Source of the DNA: Acidithiobacillus ferrooxidans ATCC 23270 | GTDB lineage: Bacteria; Pseudomonadota; Gammaproteobacteria; Acidithiobacillales; Acidithiobacillaceae | DNA length: 64,000 nt | Direction of reading: 5' to 3' | Assembly (NCBI RefSeq): GCF_000021485.1 | Contig: NC_011761.1 | Coordinates: 836,001 to 900,000 of the forward strand | Shown here: piece by piece, positions 9,676-43,085 of the stretch | Layout: each line of letters opens with the position of its first letter | How positions within the stretch are numbered: the first letter of the stretch is position 1 | Made by a program: the position numbers and the translations under genes | The notes under the pieces: generated by a model | What the model was told of the DNA's origin: nothing | The model's database searches: none | The model's input: the letters and a program-made list of their open reading frames with translations, nothing else

Positions 9676-10713
9676 ATGGATGAACAGCGCAGCAAGGCCC
9701 TTTCGGCGGCCCTGTCACAGATTGACAAACAGTTTGGTAAAGGCGCCGTCATGCGTCTCGGTGATCATAACGCCATCAAGGACATCGAGGTCTACTCCAC
9801 CGGCTCGCTGGGTCTGGATCTGGCGCTGGGTGTTGGCGGACTGCCCCGGGGCCGGGTGGTAGAGATCTACGGGCCGGAATCTTCCGGTAAAACGACTCTC
9901 ACCCTGCATGCCATAGCCAGTTGTCAGGCTGCAGGCGGCACCGCCGCCTTTATCGATGCCGAGCACGCGCTCGACCCAGGCTATGCCCACAAGCTCGGCG
10001 TCGATCTGGAAAACCTCCTGATCTCCCAGCCTGATACCGGCGAGCAGGCCCTGGAAATCGCCGACATGCTGGTGCGCTCCGGTGCCGTGGACCTCATCGT
10101 CATCGACTCCGTGGCCGCTCTGACCCCCAAAGCGGAAATCGAAGGCGACATGGGCGATTCCCACGTCGGTCTGCAGGCGCGTCTGATGAGTCAGGCGTTG
10201 CGCAAGCTCACCGCCAATATCTCCCGGACCAACACCCTGGTCATTTTCATCAACCAGATTCGCATGAAAATCGGGGTGATGTATGGCAGTCCGGAAACCA
10301 CCACCGGTGGTAATGCCCTTAAATTCTACGCTTCCGTGCGCCTTGATATCCGCCGCATCGGCGCGATCAAAAAGAGCGACGAAGTGGTAGGTAACGATAC
10401 CCGCGTCAAGGTGGTCAAGAATAAGGTCGCACCACCTTTCCGCGAAGCCGAATTTGCCATCTATTACGGTGAAGGCATCTCCCGACTGTCCGAACTGGTG
10501 GACCTCGGTGTGAAGTTCGACATCGTCGAAAAAAGCGGCGCCTGGTACAGTTACCAGGGCGAGCGTATTGGTCAGGGCAAGGACAATGCCCGCCAGTACC
10601 TCAAGGAGCATCCGGAACTGGCGGCCAATATCGAGCAGCGGATACGGGCAGCGGCAGCAGGACACCCCCTGGCCTTTGCCGAAGAGGTGGCAGAGCCCGC
10701 AGCGGTCGGCTAG
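9676..10713 (+). CDS. recA: Recombinase A
   Basis: ATP-dependent strand-exchange protein and SOS co-protease. 345 residues from the ATG at 9676, with GGAGAAGG upstream; longer in-frame starts are rejected because RecA begins at this MDEQRSKAL segment. Walker [10 protein letters not shown] near residue 70, [10 protein letters not shown] Walker B, loop L1 ([14 protein letters not shown]) and loop L2 ([20 protein letters not shown]). The C-terminal tail is less acidic than in E. coli. The stop codon TAG is immediately followed by the recX TTG start. Confidence 0.99.
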
Positions 10714-11166
10714 TTGACGACAGAACGCAGCGATCCCACCGCGCTGGCGCTACGGTTGCTGGCGCGCCGGGAGTATGGGCGCCGGGAGTTGGGTGACAAA
10801 CTGCTCCGTGCGGGATGTGACGCAGGGGACGTGGCGCTGGCGCTGGATGCGCTCGCCGCCGCCGGTTATCAGGATGACGCGCGTTATGTGGAAATGCTCA
10901 CCCGTACCCGTGTGCGTCAGGGGCACGGGCCCTTGCGCTTGCGTCAGGACTTGCAGCGGGCGGGGATCGAGGTTGGCGCAGACCCCGAGATTGACTGGTT
11001 GCAGCAAGCGCAAGCCGTCTGTCGGAAGCGTTTCGGCAACACGCCGCCGGCGGACGCCAGAGATTATGCCCGGCGCGCCCGTTTCCTGGCGGGGCGGGGA
11101 TTTACCGGAGAGACGATTCGCCAGGTGCTGGGCGCCGGCAGAGAAAGGGATTTCGCTGCCGATTGA
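10714..11166 (+). CDS. recX: RecX regulatory protein
   Basis: Small helical-repeat protein that binds RecA filaments and limits their extension. 150 residues, with typical RecX blocks: ALRLLARREYGRRELGDKLLRAG, LAAAGYQDDARYVEMLTRTRVRQGHGPLRL split over two repeats, and a C-terminal ARRARFLAGRGFTGETIRQVL. It begins at TTG directly after the recA TAG with no intergenic base and no Shine-Dalgarno of its own outside recA, so translation is probably coupled to recA and kept low. Confidence 0.95.
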   Translation: MTTERSDPTALALRLLARREYGRRELGDKLLRAGCDAGDVALALDALAAAGYQDDARYVEMLTRTRVRQGHGPLRLRQDLQRAGIEVGADPEIDWLQQAQAVCRKRFGNTPPADARDYARRARFLAGRGFTGETIRQVLGAGRERDFAAD

Positions 11167-11235
11167 CAGCGGGTGAGGGGGCGGAGAAACCCCGCCCGGA
11201 GACAAAAACACTTTATCTTTAACAACGGAAGACCG

Positions 11236-13869
11236 ATGCAAGCGCAAGCCATTCGCCAAGCTTTTCTGGAGTATTTTGTGGAACAGGGGCATCAGATCGT
11301 GCCCTCCAGCCCCCTGATCCCTCGTAACGATCCGACCCTGCTGTTTACCAATGCCGGTATGGTGCCCTTCAAGGACGTGTTTCTTGGCCTGGAAACCCGT
11401 CCCTACCGGCGCGCCGTTTCCTCGCAGCGTTGCATGCGCGCGGGTGGCAAACACAACGATCTGGAAAATGTCGGCTACACAGCGCGGCACCATACCTTCT
11501 TCGAGATGCTGGGCAACTTCTCTTTTGGCGACTATTTCAAGCGTGAAGTGATCGGCTTTGCCTGGCGTTTCCTCACCGAACGTCTGGGCCTGCCGCCGGA
11601 AAAGCTCTGGATTACGGTTTACGAGGAGGATGATGAGGCGGCCGACATCTGGATGAACGAGATCGGTATCGATCCCGCGCGCCTCTCCCGCTGCGGCGAA
11701 AAGGACAACTTCTGGAGCATGGGCGACACCGGCCCCTGCGGCCCCTGTTCGGAGATTTTCTATGACCACGGCCCCCATATTCCCGGAGGCCCTCCGGGCA
11801 GTCCGGAGGAAGACGGCGATCGCTATATCGAAATCTGGAATCTGGTCTTCATGCAGTTTGACCGGGACAGCAGCGGCACCCTGACCCCTCTGCCAAAACC
11901 CTCCGTCGATACCGGCATGGGTCTGGAGCGTCTCGCGGCCGTGCTCCAGGGCGTACATAACAACTATGACACCGATCTCTTCAAGCCGCTGATTGCCGCA
12001 GCAGCCACCATCAGCGGCAAAACATATGGGAGCGATGCGGCGACGGACATCAGTTTGCGGGTGCTGGCGGATCACATCCGTGCCTGCAGCTTTCTCATCA
12101 CCGATGGCGTCCTGCCCGCCAACGAAGGCCGCGGCTATGTGCTGCGCCGCATCATCCGCCGCGCCGTGCGTCATGGCCGCAAGCTGGGCATGGAGACGGT
12201 ATTTTTCCATCAACTGGTGGCGCCGCTGGTGGCGGAGATGGGCAGTGCCTTTCCCGAACTCACGCGGGCACAGCGCGAAGTGGAGCGCGCTCTGGAGCGT
12301 GAGGAAACCCGTTTCCGGGAAACGCTGGAGCGCGGACTCAGTCTGCTGGAGGAGGCCATTGCGGATCTTGCAGCGGGTGCCGCCATTCCCGGCGAGATCA
12401 TTTTCCGGCTCGCAGATACCTTTGGTTTCCCCGTCGATCTAACCGCTGATATCGCCCGCGAGCGCGATCTGATCATGGATATGGAGGGCTACGAGGCGGC
12501 TATGGCGGAGCAGCGCAGCCGCTCCCGTGCCGCCTGGGCGGGCAGCGGTGAGGTCAAGACCGAGCGGGTGTACCACGATCTGGCCATGCGGCTGCCGGTT
12601 ACCGAGTTCACCGGCTATTCGACCTGTGCCGATGAGGGGAAGGTGGTGGCGCTGATCCGCGATGGTGAAGAGGTGGCCTTCCTCGAAGCGGGGGACATGG
12701 GAGTGGTTATTCTCGATCGGACGCCCTTTTACGGGGAGTCCGGCGGGCAGGCGGGAGACCGTGGCGAGCTCCAGTCGGATGATGCCCTGTTTGCCGTGAC
12801 GGACACCCAAAAGCCCATGGGTCACCTGCATGTGCATTTGGGGCGCATGGAATCCGGGCGCCTGCGGGTCGGCGATATGGTGGTTGCCAGCATCGACGAA
12901 GTGGCCAGACGGGCGACGGCCGCACATCACTCCGCGACCCACCTGCTCCATGCCGCCTTGCGCAACATTCTCGGCAGTCATGTGCAGCAGAAGGGTTCGC
13001 TGGTCAACCCGGAGCGGCTGCGTTTCGACTTCAGTCAGCCGGAGCCGGTGACGGCCGCACAGTTGCGGGAAATCGAGCGCGTGGTCAACGCCGCTATCCG
13101 TAATAATGTCGGCGCCGAAACCCGGATCCTGCCTGTCGCCGAGGCACAGGCCCTGGGTGCCATGGCGCTCTTCGGCGAGAAGTACGGAGACGAGGTGCGG
13201 GTGGTGCGCATGGGTGACTTCTCCATGGAACTCTGTGGCGGCACCCATGTGGAGGCGCTGGGCGATATAGGTGTTTTCAAGATCCTCAGCGAAAGCGGCG
13301 TGGCAGCGGGTATCCGGCGTATCGAAGCAGTCACCGGCGCGGTGGCGCTGGAGGCTATTCAGCGTGATGAAGAACGCCTGCAAGCGGCGGCCGGACTGTT
13401 GAAAGTTGCCCCTGCAGAACTGGACCAACGTCTGGCGCAAACCCTGGAACGCCTGCGCCAGTTAGAAAAAGAGCTGGAAAAGGTCAAGCGGGATGAAGCC
13501 GCCAGAGCGGGTGCCGATCTTGCCGCAGAGGCCGAGGATGTGGGCGGAGTACCGGTATTGATCAGGCGCCTGGAGGGGATGGATGGCAAAGCCTTGCGCG
13601 ATGCCCTGGATCGCCTGCGCAGTCAGTTACCTGACGGCGTCATCGTCCTTGCGGGCGTGGAAAGGGAGAAAGTGGCGTTGATTGCCGGAGTCGGTAAAGG
13701 ATTGACTGGACGGGTTCACGCCGGAGAACTGGTGAACACCGTGGCACAACCGTTGGGCGGCAAGGGGGGTGGGCGTCCGGAACTGGCGCAGGCCGGGGCC
13801 GGCAATCCGGCGGCCTTGGATGCCGCCCTCGCCGCCGCCCGCGACTGGGTCAAAGGCAAACTCGGCTAG
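11236..13869 (+). CDS. alaS: Alanyl-tRNA synthetase
   Basis: Class II synthetase, 877 residues (E. coli 876). Catalytic core at the N terminus with motif 1-2 segments ([53 protein letters not shown]) and motif 3 [10 protein letters not shown]. Editing domain with the zinc ligands HHSATHLLH and CGGTHV. C-terminal coiled coil ([20 protein letters not shown]) and a final DHHA1/C-Ala domain with [14 protein letters not shown]. The start at 11236 was chosen to match the [15 protein letters not shown] terminus. It follows recX by 69 bases, the classical recA-recX-alaS order. Confidence 0.98.
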
Positions 13870-33473: not shown

Positions 33474-33498
33474 AACAAAAAGGGGCCCGAAGGCCCCC
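33474..33498 (-). terminator. Intrinsic terminator of the cydAB operon (UUCG loop)
   Basis: Read on the minus strand: GGGGCC-TTCG-GGCCCC followed by TTTTTGTT. A perfect 6-bp GC stem with a UUCG tetraloop and a U-tract lies 16 bases after the stop of the 33-residue ORF, just before the aldehyde dehydrogenase start. Confidence 0.9.
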
Positions 33499-33513
33499 GT
33501 GACGGTACCGCGT

Positions 33514-33615
33514 TTAGCGGAATCGTTTTCTGGTGTACAGATAAGCGAAGCCTGCCAGACTAAAATAAATAAACGGTATGAAGAAGATGAGGTCTTCCAG
33601 ATCTACATATTGCAT
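33514..33615 (-). CDS. 33-residue single-helix membrane peptide at the end of the cyd operon
   Basis: Short open frame: start ATG at 33615 with an AGGAG 6 bases upstream, stop TAA. The peptide begins MQYVDLEDLIFFIPF, continues as one hydrophobic helix (residues about 9-27) and ends with a basic YTRKRFR tail, giving a probable inward C terminus. It lies 17 bases after the CydX-like gene and before the operon terminator. Small accessory peptides such as CydX and CydH/CydY (YnhF) stabilise cytochrome bd in E. coli; position and size suggest a similar role here, but no clear sequence match is seen. Confidence 0.6.
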   Translation of the reverse strand: MQYVDLEDLIFFIPFIYFSLAGFAYLYTRKRFR

Positions 33616-33632
33616 AGACAGCTCCTTGTTTC

Positions 33633-33836
33633 CTAATGAGTGGAACCCTGCTTTCGCTGCTGTTCTTCATCCTGTCTGTCAAACATGATAGCACCTGCAG
33701 CAGAGATAAGGACAATCATGGTGGTACCCACCAGCCAGGCGAAGTACCAGGGGCCATAGTCGCCGGTAATCACCGCCAGAAAAAGGGACAACACCATGAC
33801 CGCCGCCAACCCGATAAATGTGAGCAAATTTTTCAT
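33633..33836 (-). CDS. cydX: CydX-like cytochrome bd accessory subunit with extra N-terminal helix
   Basis: 67 residues. The second half, PWYFAWLVGTTMIVLISAAG (residues 29-48) followed by an acidic tail, closely follows E. coli CydX (WYFAWILGT then a helix and acidic residues). CydX is 37 residues; this one has an additional N-terminal hydrophobic helix (residues 3-23). It lies 12 bases after cydB, the normal cydX position. It probably sits beside CydA and stabilises the haem b595/d site. Confidence 0.8.
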   Translation of the reverse strand: MKNLLTFIGLAAVMVLSLFLAVITGDYGPWYFAWLVGTTMIVLISAAGAIMFDRQDEEQQRKQGSTH

Positions 33837-33848
33837 GTCCGCCTCCTT

Positions 33849-34982
33849 TTAATACGCGTGGTCGTCTTGCGTGTCGGGTGCCGCCACCTTGCCGCGCATC
33901 ACCCGGAAACACCAGGTGGTGTAACTGATGATGATGGGTAGGAAGATCAGACCAAAGATGGTCATCCAGACCAGATTGTACTCGCTACCGGTGCCATTCC
34001 AGACCGTGAGGCTCTGGTCCGGGTTGTCCGTGGAAGGCATCAGGAAGGGGAACATGGAGGTGCCCACCGCACCGATCACGCCGATCCATGCCACCGCACC
34101 CATCCACCAGCCGAGGGTGGGCTTGTTGGCGCGCAGTGCGAGTACACCCAAAACCATGCCGGCCAAACCCAGCAAGGGCACCAGCCAGAGAATGGGGTGG
34201 GCGGAATAGTTGGCCATCCACGCCCCGTTCGCGAGTGTGACCGTCTGGCCGCTGACCGGATTCGCGGGCATGCCCGGATCACCACTGACCAGTTGGAAAC
34301 CCTTCATGCCGGACACCATGAAGCCACCGATGATGAAGATCACCAGCGCCGCGATGCCGCCGACGCTGGCGTAATTCCGTGCCCGGTCATACAGCGCACC
34401 GCTACCGCGTATCATGAGCATGGTGCCGCCCTGATAGATGGCCAGGCTCAGCGACAGCACGCCGCAGAGAATCGCGAAAGGATTCAGCAGATACCAGATG
34501 AAGGATTCGGTCTGATAATACTGGCCGTCCCAGCCGAAGTGAAAGCCGACGCCCTCCAGAATATTCCCCATGGCAGCCCCGTAAACAATCATGGGCAGGG
34601 CGCCGGAAATGAGAAAGACCCAGTCCCAGGAATCGCGCCAGCGATGACTGGGCACCTTGGAACGGTATTCAAAGGCGACAGGGCGCATGATCATGCTGAA
34701 CAGCAGGAGAATCATGACGATGTAGAAGACCGAAAAAGACGTCGCATAGAGGCTTGGAAAGGCCGCGAAAATCGCGCCACCGCCAAGAATGAACCACACC
34801 TGGTTACCGTCCCAGTGCGGGCCAACGATGTTCAGCGCTTCGCGGCGTTCGCCGTCGGTTTTGCCGACAAAGCGCATCAGAGTGCCAACGCCCATATCCA
34901 TACCGACCATGATAGCGAGGCCCATCAACAGGATTCCCAGAATCAGGAACCAGAATATCTTTAAATATACGTAAGCATCCAT
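33849..34982 (-). CDS. cydB: Cytochrome bd quinol oxidase subunit II
   Basis: 377 residues (E. coli 379), about nine membrane helices. Family blocks at the N terminus: FWFLILGILLMGLAIMVGMDMGVG and ALNIVGPHWDGNQVWFILGGGAIFAAFP, then FEYRSK. It holds no haem itself but forms the heterodimer with CydA and, in E. coli, the oxygen/quinone access path. Start ATG with a GGAG upstream, 59 bases after cydA. Part of the sigma-54-driven operon with cydA and the two small peptides. Confidence 0.96.
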   Translation of the reverse strand: MDAYVYLKIFWFLILGILLMGLAIMVGMDMGVGTLMRFVGKTDGERREALNIVGPHWDGNQVWFILGGGAIFAAFPSLYATSFSVFYIVMILLLFSMIMRPVAFEYRSKVPSHRWRDSWDWVFLISGALPMIVYGAAMGNILEGVGFHFGWDGQYYQTESFIWYLLNPFAILCGVLSLSLAIYQGGTMLMIRGSGALYDRARNYASVGGIAALVIFIIGGFMVSGMKGFQLVSGDPGMPANPVSGQTVTLANGAWMANYSAHPILWLVPLLGLAGMVLGVLALRANKPTLGWWMGAVAWIGVIGAVGTSMFPFLMPSTDNPDQSLTVWNGTGSEYNLVWMTIFGLIFLPIIISYTTWCFRVMRGKVAAPDTQDDHAY

Positions 34983-35041
34983 CTTGTGCTCTCCATTCAG
35001 TCGGGGGGTAAATCAACCCCCCTTGATTCATCACGCAGGCG

Positions 35042-36676
35042 TTACTTGCGATCCATGCTGGGTTTGGCAAACACCGGCTGACCCGCCATGCCGCCACCCG
35101 CAGGTGCAGAACCGTGACCATGATGGTCATCCTGCGGACCCAGACGGGCATATTTGAACATCAGGTAGAGCTCCGCCGCGATGAAAGAGCTGTACAGCAG
35201 GGTGAACCCGATAAGCGAGAACACCATGTAGCCGACGCTGTGGGTGGAGGCGGAGACGAAGGTGGGCAGCCAGCCGAATACCGTCCACGGCTGACGACCA
35301 TTTTCGGCGGTGATCCAACCGAACTCACAGGCTACCCAAGGCAAGGGAATACTCCACATCGCCAGTTTCAGCAGGGTGGGGTGTTTCTCGATTTCGTTCT
35401 TCAGGCTGAAATAAGCCGCGAAAGCGAAGAGGACCAGCATGAAGAAGCCCATGGCGACCATCAGGCGGAAGGCCCAGAACTCTACCCAGACATTGGGGAT
35501 GGTGTCCTTCGCGGTCTTGTCCAGAATGCTGGGCAGATTGGTGGCGTCGATCTTCTTGAGGTCCTGATCAGGCGCAAACTGCATGGCCAGGAAACCGTAA
35601 CCCATGTCATTTTCATACTGCTTGAAGGTGGCCAGTGCCTGGGTATTGCTATGATCCAGGTTGTACTCCTTCAGCGCGATCATCGCCTTGATGCCATTGG
35701 CAATCTTTGGCTTGGCTTCCTGCTCCAGCTGGATGATGCCGGGAATGACCGTCGTTTCGGAGTGGGTCAGCAGCGGTGTAAGGATATACGGGATGGAAAC
35801 CTCGAAGAGATTCTTCTGTTCGCTACGGCTGGGGATGGCGATGAGGTTCCAGGACGCGGACACCGTGTTGTAATCCGTGTTCCAGATGGCTTCCATGGCC
35901 GCCAGCTTGGTGGGTTGTTTCTGACCATCAATGTAGCCCAGGGCGTCACCCAGGGTAATGACGCCGATGCTGGAAATCACGCCGAAGAGCGTGGCGATCC
36001 GGAAGGAACGCAACGCCATATCTTTCCGCTTGTTGGTCAGCATGTAATAAGCGCTGACGCCCATGACAAACATGGAGCCGGTTACGAAACCCGCGATGGA
36101 GGTATGCACAAACTTGGCCTGCGCATCCGGATTGAAGATCAGGTCGATAAAGCTGGAAAATTGCATCCGCATGGTATTGGGATCAAAAGTGCCGCCCCGC
36201 GGGTCCTGCATGAAGCCGTTGGCAATGAGAATCCACAATGCAGAAAGGTTGGAACCGAGAGCAACCAGATAGGTGACCACGAGGTGCGCCTTGCGGCTCA
36301 TGCGGTCCCAGCCGAAGAACATCACACCGACAAAGGTGGATTCCATGAAGAAGGCCATCAGCCCCTCAATGGCCAGCGGGGTACCGAAAATATCGCCCAC
36401 GAAGTGGGAGTACATGGACCAGTTGGTCCCGAATTCAAACTCCATGGTCAGGCCGGTAGCGACACCCAGGGCAAAGTTGATGCCGAAGAGCTTGCCCCAG
36501 AACTGAGTCATTTCTTTATATATCTGTTTGCCGGTGATGACATACACCGTTTCCATGGTGGCCAGAATAAAGGTCATACCCAGGGTGAGTGGTACAAATA
36601 AGAAGTGGTAGAGAGCGGTCAGCGCGAACTGTAGGCGCGATAGCTCCACCACCGTGGGATTGATCAACATGTCCAT
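35042..36676 (-). CDS. cydA: Cytochrome bd quinol oxidase subunit I
   Basis: 544 residues (E. coli 522), about nine helices. It binds haems b558, b595 and d and reduces oxygen to water with quinol, a high-affinity oxidase for low oxygen or stress. Haem ligand His at residue 23 in LQFALTALYHFLFVP; second His in KFVHTSIAGFVTGSM; the EFGTNWSMYSHFVGDIFG and AFFMESTFVG blocks; quinol-loop signature GRQPWTVFGWLPT near residue 460. The start ATG is preceded by GGAGG at 6 bases. It lies 10 bases after the ETHE1-like gene, so both are in one operon. Confidence 0.97.
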   Translation of the reverse strand: MDMLINPTVVELSRLQFALTALYHFLFVPLTLGMTFILATMETVYVITGKQIYKEMTQFWGKLFGINFALGVATGLTMEFEFGTNWSMYSHFVGDIFGTPLAIEGLMAFFMESTFVGVMFFGWDRMSRKAHLVVTYLVALGSNLSALWILIANGFMQDPRGGTFDPNTMRMQFSSFIDLIFNPDAQAKFVHTSIAGFVTGSMFVMGVSAYYMLTNKRKDMALRSFRIATLFGVISSIGVITLGDALGYIDGQKQPTKLAAMEAIWNTDYNTVSASWNLIAIPSRSEQKNLFEVSIPYILTPLLTHSETTVIPGIIQLEQEAKPKIANGIKAMIALKEYNLDHSNTQALATFKQYENDMGYGFLAMQFAPDQDLKKIDATNLPSILDKTAKDTIPNVWVEFWAFRLMVAMGFFMLVLFAFAAYFSLKNEIEKHPTLLKLAMWSIPLPWVACEFGWITAENGRQPWTVFGWLPTFVSASTHSVGYMVFSLIGFTLLYSSFIAAELYLMFKYARLGPQDDHHGHGSAPAGGGMAGQPVFAKPSMDRK

Positions 36677-36686
36677 GAATTACCTC

Positions 36687-37421
36687 CTACAAAGAAGCCG
36701 GAATATTCCGACCGGGCATGTAATGGTGCACATCTTCCTCCTGTGCCCCTATTTTGTTTACATCACTTTTACGGGTTACTTCTACTGAAGACTTCTCCGG
36801 CAACAAGAGCGCACAACTGCGTAAGAACGCGCCTTTGCCCCGTTGATTGTTGAACCAGTTGTCCTTGCGGCGGAGTTCCTCGATGCTGGTGAGGCGCCGG
36901 CCTTTGCTTTCCAGACCCGGATAGATCAGGGTTTCCCCAGGGAAACTGAGCAAACTTTGGGTGATGCTGTGATACAGGGTTTGCGGATCGCTCTGGCTGG
37001 TACAGGGTGCCGCACCGGTGGCCAGCAGGGTCATCCCGGTGAACAGACGATCTTCCCACCAATAGGTGACCGCGCAGGGGCTGAGCCCCGGCGTGTGCAG
37101 CACCCGCAGACTTTCCTCTCCGAAATAGAGGACATCACCATGCCGCATGCGCAGGTCGATATGCTCATCGGTGACGCTCTCGTGGGCGACAATCCGGGCG
37201 CCGCTGTGTTCCTTCAATACGGTAGCCGCGGCGATATGGACGGGTTCATGGTGGGTCTGCAGTATATACCGCAGATCGAGGCCACGCTCGATCATGAACG
37301 CCTCCAGCGTGTCGACGTGTGTCGGCATGGGGTCGATGATGACGGTCTCGCGGGTGACGGGGTCACCCAGCAGATAGCTCAGGTGGCCGCCCTTGGGGGT
37401 GCATAGTTGTCTGAAAATCAT
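36687..37421 (-). CDS. ETHE1-like metallo-beta-lactamase-fold protein with degenerate metal site
   Basis: 244 residues from the ATG at 37421. The fold follows persulfide dioxygenases: MIFRQL at the start, YLLGDPVTRETVIIDPMPTHVD, then HTPG, LFTG and QTLYHSITQSLLSFPG. The metal motif THxHxDH reads THHEPVH (residues 56-62), so its second His and Asp are gone. The bridging Asp after LFTG is Met130. First His57 and His109 remain. It is therefore probably not a normal iron persulfide dioxygenase; it may bind sulfur species or haem, or serve as a sensor or scaffold. First gene of the cydAB operon. A start at 37451 would sit on the predicted RNA start and is the alternative. Confidence 0.8.
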   Translation of the reverse strand: MIFRQLCTPKGGHLSYLLGDPVTRETVIIDPMPTHVDTLEAFMIERGLDLRYILQTHHEPVHIAAATVLKEHSGARIVAHESVTDEHIDLRMRHGDVLYFGEESLRVLHTPGLSPCAVTYWWEDRLFTGMTLLATGAAPCTSQSDPQTLYHSITQSLLSFPGETLIYPGLESKGRRLTSIEELRRKDNWFNNQRGKGAFLRSCALLLPEKSSVEVTRKSDVNKIGAQEEDVHHYMPGRNIPASL

Positions 37422-37460
37422 ATCGCCCGTCCCTGTCGAGTATTTGGACATCAGAGTATT

Positions 37461-37476
37461 AGCAATCTCTGTGCCA
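37461..37476 (-). promoter_or_regulatory. Sigma-54 promoter of the ETHE1-like/cydAB operon
   Basis: Minus strand: TGGCAC-AGAGA-TTGCT, a full match to the -24/-12 consensus TGGCAC-N5-TTGCW. The predicted RNA start is about 37450, 29 bases before the ATG used here. The sigma-54 activator gene is divergent and adjacent. Confidence 0.85.
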
Positions 37477-37482
37477 TTATTT

Positions 37483-37499
37483 GATAATAGTCTATTATC
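37483..37499. promoter_or_regulatory. Palindrome next to the sigma-54 promoter
   Basis: GATAATAG-T-CTATTATC, a perfect 8-bp inverted repeat with one central base, 7 bases upstream of the -24 element. It is too close for a normal enhancer; it may be a repressor or co-regulator site. The intergenic region 37422-37726 holds this, the sigma-54 promoter, a second palindrome and the regulator's own promoter. Confidence 0.55.
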
Positions 37500-37602
37500 C
37501 TGGCGTCCTTTGAAAGGATAATGATAAACAGGTCGTTGTATTTTATTTGTAGGGCTGTTCATGTGCTATACAGCCGCTGTCGTGGCTTATACCTCAGCCC
37601 AG

Positions 37603-37618
37603 CTGCCAAAAATGGCAG
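37603..37618. promoter_or_regulatory. Palindrome, candidate activator binding site (UAS)
   Basis: CTGCCA-AAAA-TGGCAG, a perfect 6-bp inverted repeat, 127 bases upstream of the sigma-54 promoter (typical enhancer distance) and directly before the -35 region of the regulator gene, so it could serve both activation and autoregulation. Confidence 0.5.
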
Positions 37619-37645
37619 TTGCGGATTGGCAGGTGCTGCTATAAT
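37619..37645 (+). promoter_or_regulatory. Candidate sigma-70 promoter of the regulator gene
   Basis: Perfect -10 TATAAT (37640-37645) with a weak -35 TTGCGG (37619-37624), spacer 15 bases; about 80 bases upstream of the regulator ATG. Confidence 0.4.
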
Positions 37646-37726
37646 TGACATGCGCGCGGTGAGGGGTGAGGATGTGCCCGTTGCACCGATCTCGAGTCCG
37701 TGTGCGGAGGGTGTGGAGGAGGGGGT

Positions 37727-39082
37727 ATGACGGATTTGCTCAGGCAGTTGCGGGCGGAAATGACATCGTTGCTGGACTGTTTCAGCGCCCCGGCCGTGCT
37801 GCTGTGTGCAGATTACTCCGTTCTCGCCGCCAACCAGGCTTATCGGCGGGTCTTCGGCGACGGCAAGCCCCTGCAGGGGCGGCGCTGTTACGAAATCATG
37901 GAGGACGCCGGCTACGCCTGTCGTCAGGGAGGCAATCATTGCCCACTCGACGCCTGCCAAAGCTCCGGTACCGGCCAGCATGTGGTGCACAGCAATACCT
38001 CCGGAAACGCGCAGATCGATCTCTACCCTATCCGTAATGATAGCGCTAAAGTTGTCTACTTTCTTGAACTGCTGACCCTGGCGCCGCAATTGACGGCGTT
38101 GCCCGCCCCCGCCATGGTCGGCAACTCCCCCGCCTGGCGGGACGTGGCCAGGCTTATCCGCCGGGCGGCGCCCAGTGATGCCGCCGTATTGCTGCTCGGT
38201 GAGTCCGGTACGGGTAAGGAACTGGCCGCTGCGGCCGTACATCAGGCCAGTCACTGTCGGAACGGGCCTTTTGTAGCGGTGGATTGTTCCGGGTTGTCGG
38301 AAACCCTCTTTGAGAGCGAGCTCTTCGGTCATGAAAAAGGGGCATTTACGGGCGCGCATTCGCGCAAAACCGGTCTGGTGGAGGCGGCCGATGGGGGCAC
38401 CCTTTTTCTCGACGAAGTCGGTGATATTCCGCTCAGTCTACAGGTGAAACTTCTGCGCCTGCTGGAAACGGGGCATTTCCGGCGGGTAGGGGGCGTGGAG
38501 CCGATCCGTTCGCAGTTCCGCCTGGTCTCGGCTACTCACCGTCCGCTTGAAAAAATGGTCGCGGAGGAGCGTTTCCGGCAGGATCTGTATTACCGTCTGA
38601 ATACATTTCCGATCATGCTGCCCGCGCTGCGGGAGCGCCTGGAGGATGTGCCCTTGCTGGCGGAAGTCATCCTGCAACGGCTGCCGGTGGCCAGGGGGCT
38701 GCACCTTCACGCCGATACGCTGGAACTGCTGCGCCGTTATAACTACCCCGGCAACATTCGTGAACTGCGCAACATTCTCGAGCGTGCGGCGCTACTGGCC
38801 GACGATGTCTGGATTCTTCCGGAACACCTGCCTACAAACCTTCAGTATTTGTCGGTGCAAGAATCCGGCCCGGCTTCGTCTTTGACGGGCCGGCAGCCCA
38901 TACCCGGTGTTGGCGAAATCATTCCATTGGCGGATCTGGAAGCACAATACCTGCGCTGGGCGCGGGGAAATTATGGTGGCGATCGCCGCGGCCTGGCGCA
39001 GCGCCTGGGGGTAAGCGAGCGAACCTTGTACCGCAAGCTGGACGCACTGAGGAGTAATACTGGGCATGCCGTTGAATCCTGA
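37727..39082 (+). CDS. Sigma-54-dependent activator with cysteine-rich PAS-like sensor domain
   Basis: 451 residues from the ATG at 37727, with GGAGG upstream. N-terminal PAS-like domain (residues about 10-115) with six Cys: C18, C27, C54, C65, C72 and C77; the last four form a RRCYE..C..C..C cluster like PAS domains suspected of metal or redox sensing. AAA+ domain: Walker A GESGTGKE (158-165), GAFTGA (205-210, the sigma-54 contact loop), [13 protein letters not shown] Walker B and the R-finger region. The C-terminal Fis-type [20 protein letters not shown] binds DNA. No receiver domain, so it is a one-component regulator. It is divergent from the sigma-54 promoter of the cyd operon and probably controls it. 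Confidence 0.9.
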
Positions 39083-41137: not shown

Positions 41138-41540
41138 AAAACCTTCCTAGTCAATATGATAGAAGTCATTCGTAAGGTTGTTGATCATGTTGGTGGCCGC
41201 GCGTTGTTGCGTCGGTGATTAAATTCCATGGTGGAGCGAGTGCAGGTTCATGAATTATTTTGTTGTTTATCAGCGACTATTACCCCTAGCCATTTTTATA
41301 GTTGAAAGGCGTCATTTATAGAACTCGTCTATGGGTGTCTGACGATACTATAATACTTTCAGTGCGCTATGAAGTCTGTCTTGAATGCGTCCGCGAGAGA
41401 TGCGGTTCGGCGCGGTGGATTCTCTGGTCATCTTTCCGATGACGTCGGGCACAAGCGACAAAAGCAAGCCTCAAAAAATAAATAAACATTAAAAATTAGT
41501 ATGTTGCACCTATGGCACAGGTATTGCTTCCTGTTCTGTC
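41138..41540. other. Intergenic region between lpd and opgG
   Basis: 403 bases without a convincing gene, clearly more AT-rich than its surroundings, especially 41470-41510 (A-rich, a possible IHF-type bending site). It holds a TATAAT hexamer at 41349 without a good -35, a CCGATGACGTCGG partial palindrome near 41437, and a sigma-54 promoter at its end. Confidence 0.6.
41513..41528 (+). promoter_or_regulatory. Sigma-54 promoter of opgG
   Basis: TGGCAC-AGGTA-TTGCT, a full match to TGGCAC-N5-TTGCW. The -12 C is at 41527, placing the RNA start at about 41539, only two bases before the opgG ATG. No ribosome binding site is present in between. Confidence 0.85.
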
Positions 41541-43085
41541 ATGAATATTTATCGTCGTCGTCATCATCTGTCACTGAAGCCGCTTTCTGCCGTCCTGCTT
41601 GGGCTGGCCGCATTGACGGCAACGCTGCCCGCATACGCCGCCGAGTTCGGCATGGCTACGGTGGAGGCCAAGGCCAAATTGCTGGTGGACCGCACCTACA
41701 ACCCGAAGCCCTTGCCTATCCCGGCTTTTCTCAAAGATCTCACGCCCGACCAGTATGCCGAGATTCAGGATGTTTCACCGCTCTGGAGAGGCGACCACTT
41801 GCCGTACGAGGCACAGTTTTATCTTCCTGGCTCCTGGTTTCACCGCCCAGTGGTTATTCGCAGCGTTGTGGACGGTGCGGTACGGCCAGTGCCCTTTACG
41901 CTGGAGCACTTCAGTTTCGGCAAACTGAACGTACCCAAAAATATACCCAGCGCACTCGGCTATGCAGGTTTCCGTCTGCTCGCGCCGCTCGACAATCCAC
42001 CGCATCACAACGAGTTCATCTCCTTTCTCGGTGCGACCTATTTTCGCGCTGTCGGCAAAGGTGCCATCTACGGGACCTCGGCCCGTGGGCTCGGGATCGA
42101 CACGGCTCAGCCTTCCGGCGAAATCTTCCCCTACTTCAAAGAATTCTGGCTGGTGCGCCCCAAACCCGATGCGACCTCGATGGTGGTCTATGCGCTGATG
42201 GACAGCTCCGTCGCGACGGGGGCCTATCGCTTCACCATCCAGCAGGGGGATAGCACCACGGTGCATGTGGAGGCCACCATCTACCTGCGCAAGCCGGTAC
42301 AGGTACTGGAACTGGCGCCCTTGACCAGCATGTACTGGCACGGCCATGGACGCGGCGCCATCGCAGGTGACTGGCACCCGGCCCAGCACGATTCCAGCGA
42401 CTTGGTCATGGCCAACGGTAATGGTGAATGGACGACCAGGCCCATCAACAACCCGCTGTACGCCCAGACCACGACCTACGCGATGGATCATCCAGTCGGG
42501 TTTGGCCTGATTCAGCAGGATCGCCGGTTCTCCGCTTACCAGGGTATCGAAACCCAGTACCAACGGCGCCCCAGCGTCTGGGTTCAGCCCGACGGTGATT
42601 GGGGCAAGGGGCAGCTACGTCTGGTGGAGTTGCCCACCAACAATCGGGATATGGATAATATTGTCGCGTTCTGGGTGCCGGAACATGAACCTGCACCCAA
42701 AACGCCCCTGCACTTCGCCTATACCCTGCGCTTTTTCCTCGATAATCACGGTCTGATCCCGCTGCCCCATCCGGTGGGCACCTATCTGGGCGACGATCCA
42801 AAAGTGCCCGGCGCACGGAAGGTGGTAATCGATTTCGGGGGCGGGGCACTCTCCAAACTGCAGGAAACCGCGCCCGTGCAGGTCCATCTTGAGGCTGCGG
42901 ACGGTGCGAAAATTCTCAGCCAGAAACTGGAATGGGAAAAGGATGGTCATTTCTGGCGAGTGATCGCCGTCATTCAGCCGCAACCGGGTTCGCCCAGTAA
43001 TGTACGGTGTTTTTTAACCCTGAACCATCAGGTGATGAGCAATACCTGGACATATCTTTTACACGCGGCAAAGGAGCAGATGTAA
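41541..43085 (+). CDS. opgG: Glucan biosynthesis protein G (periplasmic OpgG/MdoG)
   Basis: 514 residues (E. coli 511). Sec signal peptide (basic NIYRRRHH start, hydrophobic core, cleavage near PAYAAEF). OpgG family blocks: VRSVVDGAVRPVPF-like segment, FISFLGATYFRAVGKG, YGTSARGLGIDTA, PYFKEFWLVRP, and TSMYWHGHGRG. It helps build and branch osmoregulated periplasmic beta-glucans. No alternative in-frame start is available and there is no Shine-Dalgarno, so translation from a nearly leaderless mRNA is likely. Its stop overlaps the next start (TAATG). Confidence 0.93.
   Translation: MNIYRRRHHLSLKPLSAVLLGLAALTATLPAYAAEFGMATVEAKAKLLVDRTYNPKPLPIPAFLKDLTPDQYAEIQDVSPLWRGDHLPYEAQFYLPGSWFHRPVVIRSVVDGAVRPVPFTLEHFSFGKLNVPKNIPSALGYAGFRLLAPLDNPPHHNEFISFLGATYFRAVGKGAIYGTSARGLGIDTAQPSGEIFPYFKEFWLVRPKPDATSMVVYALMDSSVATGAYRFTIQQGDSTTVHVEATIYLRKPVQVLELAPLTSMYWHGHGRGAIAGDWHPAQHDSSDLVMANGNGEWTTRPINNPLYAQTTTYAMDHPVGFGLIQQDRRFSAYQGIETQYQRRPSVWVQPDGDWGKGQLRLVELPTNNRDMDNIVAFWVPEHEPAPKTPLHFAYTLRFFLDNHGLIPLPHPVGTYLGDDPKVPGARKVVIDFGGGALSKLQETAPVQVHLEAADGAKILSQKLEWEKDGHFWRVIAVIQPQPGSPSNVRCFLTLNHQVMSNTWTYLLHAAKEQM

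Follow-up and report, generated by a model that had tools for sequence, protein, structure and literature searches.

The cyd locus of Acidithiobacillus ferrooxidans ATCC 23270 and the regulatory gene beside it (together AFE_0954–AFE_0957) lie within a 64,000-nucleotide stretch of DNA (NC_011761.1, positions 836,001 to 900,000) that was analysed as a whole and is called the window here; coordinates are those of the window unless a locus is named. The regulator, AFE_0957, is assigned by its sequence to the FisR family of sulfane-sulfur sensors, and is encoded divergently from the operon for cytochrome bd quinol oxidase. Two copies of a candidate operator, TGYCA-N4-TGRCA, lie between them, upstream of a known sigma-54 promoter. 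The first gene of the operon encodes a degenerate relative of the persulfide dioxygenases (PDOs), the ETHE1-like companion AFE_0956, and a paralogue of this companion precedes the genes of a second quinol oxidase, behind the same dyads, in seven other loci. We read the arrangement as a FisR regulon whose targets have changed from enzymes of sulfide oxidation to quinol oxidases, together with a former dioxygenase that bears a cysteine. Its central features are as follows.

37727–39082, plus strand: FisR-family sigma-54 activator AFE_0957, with Cys54/65/72 (and Cys77); Sigma54_activat, 224.5 bits.
37637–37650: proposed FisR operator 2, 9/10 positions, 33 bases from operator 1.
37604–37617: proposed FisR operator 1, 10/10 positions, centre 147 bases from the -12 GC; 10/10 in 23/23 family loci.
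37461–37476, minus strand: sigma-54 promoter, -24/-12, TGGCACAGAGATTGCT, a perfect match, with a start determined by 5' rapid amplification of cDNA ends (5' RACE; PMC5506826).
36687–37421, minus strand: ETHE1-like companion AFE_0956; Lactamase_B, 28.3 bits; first gene of the operon (PMC5506826).
35042–36676, minus strand: cydA, cytochrome bd quinol oxidase subunit I, AFE_0955; Pfam, 544.5 bits.
33849–34982, minus strand: cydB, cytochrome bd quinol oxidase subunit II, AFE_0954; 309.4 bits; locus tag from PMC2754497.

A perfect TGYCA-N4-TGRCA dyad was present at all 23 companion loci of the Acidithiobacillaceae, with its centre 114–149 bases from the -12 GC, and a second dyad matching at least 8/10 positions was located 31–33 bases away on the regulator side in 22 of them, the exception being G010. 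When 200 bases of the window locus were subjected to 2000 letter shuffles, the best match was 9/10, reached 26 times, and 10/10 never occurred. Among 54 loci of FisR relatives from other families, 39 had a dyad matching at least 9/10 positions within 400 bases upstream (3.0 expected from dinucleotide shuffles) and 23 had a perfect one (0.09 expected), although these loci are related and the counts are consequently not independent events; among background stretches the corresponding numbers were 121 and 7 of 1876. Divided by neighbouring genes, a classification made largely by eye, dyads of at least 9/10 occurred at 12/12 oxidoreductase-triad loci, 6/7 loci with sqr or pdo, 11/14 cyd-linked loci, 4/4 other alteromonad-type loci and 6/17 of the rest. 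The dyad is very likely the DNA site of the FisR family. At 12 loci of other Pseudomonadota (L161–L178), FisR-like regulators are encoded divergently from a molybdopterin oxidoreductase/ferredoxin/NrfD-like triad, named by eye, with one or more dyads of at least 9/10 per locus between them.

The A. ferrooxidans genome contains 27 exact dyads (8 for the reversed control), and at none but the one at cyd is there a tandem partner, or a -24/-12 match that is perfect at 60–220 bases. A wider regulon of AFE_0957 (FisR1) at other genome sites was rejected, since none of the other exact dyads has a tandem partner; dyads serving the cyo operon of this genome, or the gap between its second FisR-like gene (FisR2) and sqr, were likewise rejected, the best match being 8/10 in each case. 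Operator 2 overlaps a TATAAT sequence on the regulator side, which suggests that AFE_0957 regulates its own gene.

The near-full-length alignment of AFE_0957 to a gene of Cupriavidus metallidurans, its best match in a plasmid collection (49% identity, 95% coverage), shows the layout of FisR, namely a PAS-like N-terminal domain, an AAA+ sigma-54 domain and a Fis-type helix-turn-helix; AAA_lid_14 was also found in AFE_0957, and PAS_4 (16.3 bits) and HTH_8 (19.1 bits) both scored under their cut-offs. The C. metallidurans gene is divergent from an intact PDO gene (7/7 metal positions) and an SQR-like gene. A TauE-like gene is close by; this name and that of the SQR-like gene were assigned by eye. 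The divergent genes at AFE_0957 are not pdo or sqr; cyd and a degenerate PDO gene stand there instead. Cys54, Cys65 and Cys72, at spacings of 11 and 7, are kept in 55/55 relatives of AFE_0957, in an alignment of 59 rows whose other four members (L194, L196–L198) are other activators. We take the sensor cysteines of FisR from C. pinatubonensis to be C53, C64 and C71. That protein senses sulfane sulfur through di-/tetrasulfide links among three cysteines (PMC9774590, PMC8469610), and we infer by analogy that AFE_0957 responds to sulfane sulfur through its own. Matches to the regulator at E <= 1e-75 occurred in 37 of 398 genomes of the phylum, and 40 of the 43 matches outside the A. ferrooxidans genome were retrieved. 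This genome carries a second FisR-like regulator, 44% identical and divergent from SQR-like and DUF1641-like genes (L092 8275–9663, minus strand, and 10696–12474, plus strand; genome position 2306283), with an HdrB-like gene a few kb off; these three names were assigned by eye.

The promoter has GG at -24, GC at -12 and a mapped start, and the sigma-54 start sequence printed by Moinier et al. (2017; PMC5506826) is exactly the promoter in the window. The pattern TGGCAC-N5-TTGCW has 12 sites in the 2,982,397-base genome versus 1 for the reversed control pattern, and a -24/-12 match was found at 23/23 family companion loci, its first base 46–55 bases from the companion ATG. Moinier et al. described a cyd operon with AFE_0956 as first gene and with both sigma-54 and sigma-70 starts determined by 5' RACE, showed binding of RegA to the cyd region, and suggested AFE_0957 as a sigma-54-dependent inducer of cyd (PMC5506826). 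Sigma-54 control, which a preliminary description of this DNA had proposed, is borne out; among the checks named there, the position of the RNA 5' end and conservation of the locus in related genomes both agree with it. It was already in print (PMC5506826) and is not put forward here as a new finding. The same description had held that bd oxidases are rarely under sigma-54, and in this respect it needs correction, as a sigma-54-type regulator beside a bd oxidase is no isolated case. Among 79 genomes of another gammaproteobacterial family (that of G031, Pseudoalteromonas-like by nearest named match), 19 have FisR at E <= 1e-100; 11 of these have cydAB nearby on the divergent strand (two only 30–34% similar, and some one or two genes away), four have PDO and four have neither. 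The strict -24/-12 pattern was present in only 2 of the 11 cyd-linked loci. In the regulator tree the cyd-linked regulators are not united, and a single inheritance of the FisR-cyd pair was rejected by approximately unbiased (AU) tests, both for Acidithiobacillus + Pxia + L191 + L192 + L193 (p 3e-6) and for Acidithiobacillus + Pxia + L191 + L192 + L195 (p 0.018); the branch of L193 is long, and both groupings were chosen after the tree had been seen.

In the genus, the regulator was found in 17/17 genomes (in G007 only its first 41 residues, at which the contig ends) and the companion adjoins it in 14; in G002, G004 and G005 there is no companion beside the regulator and no cydA match. In the wider family, the companion adjoins the regulator in 23 of 29 genomes and is followed by cydA in 21 of the 23, a count that leaves out five further matches at 36–39% identity. 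In G482, G486 and G487 (G482 being 71% and G487 61% complete) there is no companion at this place, and either nothing or a true dioxygenase only. Carriers include A. ferruginosus, A. sulfuriphilus, A. sulfurivorans, A. marinus, A. montserratensis, A. concretivorus, in which the companion is frameshifted, and Ca. Igneacidithiobacillus taupoensis. A search of 84,980 species genomes with two companion peptide patterns, which distant relatives could escape, returned 34 stretches and 20 confirmed loci, all in Acidithiobacillus, Igneacidithiobacillus or two proteobacterial bins. In two metagenome bins, G012 and G014, the end of thiC follows within a few bases of the companion and cyd is gone, with promoter and dyads perfect; no cydA match was found in G014, and in G012 a piece of cydA lies on a different contig. 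The loss of cyd behind the companion may be recent. The two cyd-less loci are the following.

L079 1–422 and L080 8803–10581: cyd-less companion loci of bins G012/G014.

A second type of degenerate companion (ETHE1p2) immediately precedes cyoA-cyoB-cyoC, which encode a bo3 quinol oxidase, in 7/7 loci; the cyo genes were named by NCBIfam and Pfam at one locus, by tblastn at three and by eye at the other three. All seven loci have 2–3 dyads of at least 9/10 upstream, 32 bases apart in six; when each 300-base stretch was letter-shuffled 2000 times, at least two such dyads arose 0, 0, 0, 0, 1, 0 and 1 times. The upstream regions have GG at -24 in 7/7 and GC at -12 in 6/7, and the FisR1 gene is likewise present in each of the seven genomes. 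The dyads before this operon could explain why the regulator is kept in A. ferriphilus and A. ferrivorans, in which no cydA was found. The cyo operon of A. ferrooxidans itself has no companion and no dyad of 9/10, and its promoter is of the sigma-70 type (PMC5506826).

AFE_0956 is placed with the PDOs by sequence and fold searches, but of the metal positions numbered in PMC5584763 it keeps only H113 and H118, having lost H115, D117, H169, D188 and H229; the iron triad positions H115, H169 and D188 read E, L and M. Among 31 degenerate proteins (22 of the cyd type, 7 of the cyo type and 2 of a p3 type, leaving out the frameshifted A. concretivorus copy), none has an intact triad, whereas all seven metal positions are present in 8/8 canonical dioxygenases; conversely, Cys116, three residues past a lost ligand, is present in 31/31 and in 0/8. 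The A. sulfuriphilus companion stands between the two states: it still has H115 and H169, while Glu has replaced D188. The p3 copies retain HxDH. The 31 proteins form one clade apart from the true PDOs (support 100/99), and the companion is under purifying selection, with a ratio of nonsynonymous to synonymous substitution rates (dN/dS) of 0.08–0.37 in 14 pairs, compared with 0.02–0.10 in five pairs for cydA. AFE_0956, lacking the iron triad and carrying a new cysteine, can hardly burn sulfur, and an active dioxygenase was dropped as a candidate; a likely orthologue, A. caldus A5904_1112, was expressed by Wu et al. and had no dioxygenase activity at pH 3–10 (PMC5584763). A p3 copy in A. ferrivorans DSM 22755 (L211 8001–8702) has a CysB-type LysR gene on one side and a bc1 group (cytochrome c, SDR, Rieske) on the other, and the neighbours differ at the other known case, L210; a link of p3 copies to petA, seen near one of the two loci only, was not built upon.

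On the mechanism that we propose, sulfane sulfur, as persulfide or polysulfide from growth on sulfur, would react with Cys54, Cys65 and Cys72 in the PAS-like domain of AFE_0957, as in FisR. The activated protein would occupy the two dyads, about 33 bases apart and about 115–150 bases upstream, and, by looping of the DNA, would open the sigma-54 polymerase at the published -24/-12 promoter, such that cytochrome bd, the two small proteins of the operon and AFE_0956 would be made together. Cys116, in the old active-site loop of AFE_0956, may then carry or sense persulfide and act on the quinol oxidase or its assembly, a role that is proposed because the paralogue precedes the bo3 genes behind the same dyads in seven genomes. 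A FisR-type sulfur switch of cyd and its companion in this complete form, with operator, looping and the role of Cys116, seems to us rather probable. It is consistent with log2 Fe/S ratios of -2.0 for cydA and -2.6 for cydB (Quatrini et al., 2009; PMC2754497), which place expression of the operon higher on sulfur than on Fe(II). A further-reaching proposal, that the Acidithiobacillaceae have a new class of respiratory accessory protein in which dioxygenase-fold proteins exchanged iron for cysteine and became persulfide receptors for the bd and bo3 oxidases, with one FisR-type sensor inducing both oxidase and receptor, is speculative, and we would regard it as rather doubtful; if it were true, the sulfur load would set which oxidase runs and how.

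The strongest alternative concerns the companion, which might have acquired a new catalytic or regulatory role, for instance as a persulfide transferase, a hydrolase with another metal or a co-sensor for FisR, that is not tied to the oxidase protein. The retained dioxygenase fold would accord with this, as would the two of three iron ligands kept in A. sulfuriphilus (with Asp changed to Glu), the HxDH of the p3 copies, the survival of the companion after cyd in two bins and the position of both companion types behind FisR dyads. Yet the 31 proteins share no common set of metal ligands, and since the companions are paired with quinol oxidases of two unrelated kinds, the oxidases look like the common factor, so that we consider such a role possible but less probable than the proposed sulfur switch. 

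Cysteine clusters can sense many oxidants, and AFE_0957 might accordingly use the same residues to sense redox state, oxygen, nitric oxide or the quinone pool, its link to sulfur being ancestral only. The rise of CydA and CydB on H2 (PMC7735108) and the binding of the redox regulator RegA to the cyd region (PMC5506826) would fit such a sensor; set against it are the conservation of Cys54/65/72 in all 55 relatives, some of which adjoin PDO or SQR-like genes, and the higher expression of cyd on sulfur than on Fe(II) (PMC2754497), and on these grounds we judge it unlikely. Comparable in standing, and to our minds equally improbable, is the view that cyd is driven chiefly by the sigma-70 promoter and RegA, with a minor contribution from sigma-54. 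The two starts and the RegA binding are in print (PMC5506826), but the sigma-54 site and the dyad are conserved in 23/23 loci, which include L299, probably A. caldus, a species said to lack RegBA (PMC5506826). That the ETHE1-like gene is merely in decay and stands first in the operon by chance, as its lost metal ligands, the frameshift in A. concretivorus and the inactive A. caldus protein (PMC5584763) might suggest, is very improbable given its dN/dS, the new Cys116 in 31/31 proteins, the paralogue paired with cyo, and its place beside the regulator in 23/29 family genomes, even in two that lost cyd behind it.

Several observations weigh against the proposed sulfur switch. A looser -24/-12-like match lies near six of the other exact dyads in the genome; the dyad falls below 9/10 upstream of 15 of the 54 relatives, 3 of the 14 cyd-linked ones included; and G002 keeps the regulator without cyd or p2-cyo, its dyad having decayed. 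The operon also receives input from the sigma-70 promoter and RegA (PMC5506826), hence AFE_0957 is not its sole input. CydA and CydB rise in aerobic growth on H2 (PMC7735108), H2 itself being no sulfur signal, and the data cited from PMC12016491, in which cydA is among the genes higher in the wild type under aerobic conditions and cydB among those raised anaerobically in SQR-overexpressing strains, give no simple sulfur pattern for cyd. FisR of A. baumannii functions without the conserved cysteines (PMC7315123), and no experiment was found in the literature that shows a response of AFE_0957 to sulfane sulfur or its binding to the dyad. As regards the companion, its retention without cyd behind it in G012 and G014 speaks against a role with CydAB alone, the A. 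concretivorus ATCC 19703 copy is frameshifted (L216 8001–8724) whereas the genes from cydA through the small peptide are full length, and the AlphaFold model of AFE_0956 is mediocre (predicted local distance difference test, pLDDT, 67) and too weak for placing Cys116.

Against this background, the functional claims of the preliminary description stand in part. It had the regulator switch on a sulfide-resistant oxidase together with a partner; sigma-54 control is supported and cyd is higher on sulfur, and this regulator is not the only input to the operon. Sensing of sulfur through the cysteine cluster has become plausible through the likeness to FisR and the triad in 55/55 relatives. The sulfur-binding partner remains a guess, now on a better basis given the gain of Cys116, and with the iron triad lost this partner is hardly one that oxidizes sulfur. 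All the parts that had been named in the DNA (the genes, the promoter, the UUCG terminator and the divergent sigma-54 activator) were found in place. The remaining features of the locus are listed below.

38014–38078, minus strand: published sigma-70 start sequence of cyd (PMC5506826), located by sequence, antisense within the regulator gene.
33633–33836, minus strand: CydX-like small protein, 67 aa; YbgT_YccB, 20.6 bits, E 4.7e-4, conserved position.
33514–33615, minus strand: open reading frame (ORF) for a 33-residue peptide with one hydrophobic stretch, final gene of the operon.
33481–33498, minus strand: UUCG-loop terminator at the operon end, GGGGGCC-TTCG-GGCCCC, with a 7-pair stem and a T tract.

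As the sigma-70 start lies inside AFE_0957 on the opposite strand, its transcript would cross the start of the regulator gene in antisense. The start codon of AFE_0956 was taken as the ATG at 37421, downstream of the promoter; an alternative longer ORF from 37562 would include the promoter. CydA is of the E. coli bd-I type (E 4.9e-171 to 6rko_A), with the GRQPW Q-loop region aligned and with E. coli-like heme ligand regions at what we take to be the ligand positions of 6rko_A, and CydB is present. The CydX-like score is below the curated cut-off of 26.2 bits. A Pfam search with the 33-residue peptide gave no match; a homologue follows cydX at every family locus examined that has the complete cydB of the cyd operon. 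The terminator fold (-16 kcal/mol, z -1.3) was equalled by 21 of 200 shuffles. A second cydAB pair, 23–34% similar, lies in G484 (L306 14176–15999) about 2.4 kb past an lpd-like gene of the conserved locus. Elsewhere in the window, a second perfect -24/-12 site (41513–41528, plus strand) is found 12 bases before the ATG of a gene (41541–43085) named OpgG-like glucan gene by eye, with no FisR dyad of at least 9/10 in the 300 bases upstream.

The promoter was known, but three things seem to be previously undescribed: the sensor family of AFE_0957, the DNA site that it likely uses, and a second oxidase operon that carries this site. In the open-access literature, nothing was found that links FisR to cydAB or calls AFE_0957 a FisR protein, in a search that was sensitive to wording; sulfide is reported to raise bd oxidase, yet no sulfur sensor tied directly to cydAB was found. 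A FisR-type sensor divergent from cyd in most of the Acidithiobacillaceae and also outside this family, together with a likely site for which any genome can be scanned, makes testable the question of whether persulfide directly chooses the terminal oxidase. The companion family, for its part, illustrates how an enzyme may become a receptor through loss of metal ligands and gain of a cysteine, and offers a lead on the possible purpose of an inactive yet conserved dioxygenase of the A5904_1112 type.

Cytochrome bd resists sulfide in other organisms. Sulfide raises cydAB in A. baumannii, E. coli and M. tuberculosis (PMC7315123), which is the likeness to the present case; the parts of that source consulted connect neither a FisR gene nor a FisR site with cydAB in these systems, whereas in A. 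ferrooxidans the sensor gene is divergent from cyd. The promoter is the one described by Moinier et al. (2017), and the regulator family, the operator and the nature of the companion are not given in the sections of that paper used here (PMC5506826). A5904_1112 (243 aa, 27.0 kDa) keeps only H113 and H118, as do AFE_0956 and the L299 companion (243 aa, 27.1 kDa), which is likely its orthologue, with a computed pI of 8.30 against the 7.09 printed for A5904_1112; in the available portions of PMC5584763, it is described as having no sulfur genes adjoining it, and cyd, the FisR regulator and the cyo paralogue are not mentioned. With PDO/ETHE1 enzymes (4chl, 4ysb and 8zbd; AFE_0269 of A. ferrooxidans), AFE_0956 has a common fold and sequence family, but it lacks the iron triad, has the new Cys116 and belongs to a separate clade. 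Unlike the A. baumannii FisR (PMC7315123), AFE_0957 has the sensor cysteines, and with the FisR of C. pinatubonensis it shares the three-cysteine sensor domain, the sigma-54 AAA+ domain with GAFTGA, and a divergent target operon with a sigma-54 promoter; the targets of the latter protein are pdo and sqr, whereas that of AFE_0957 would be cyd and, in its relatives, probably cyo.

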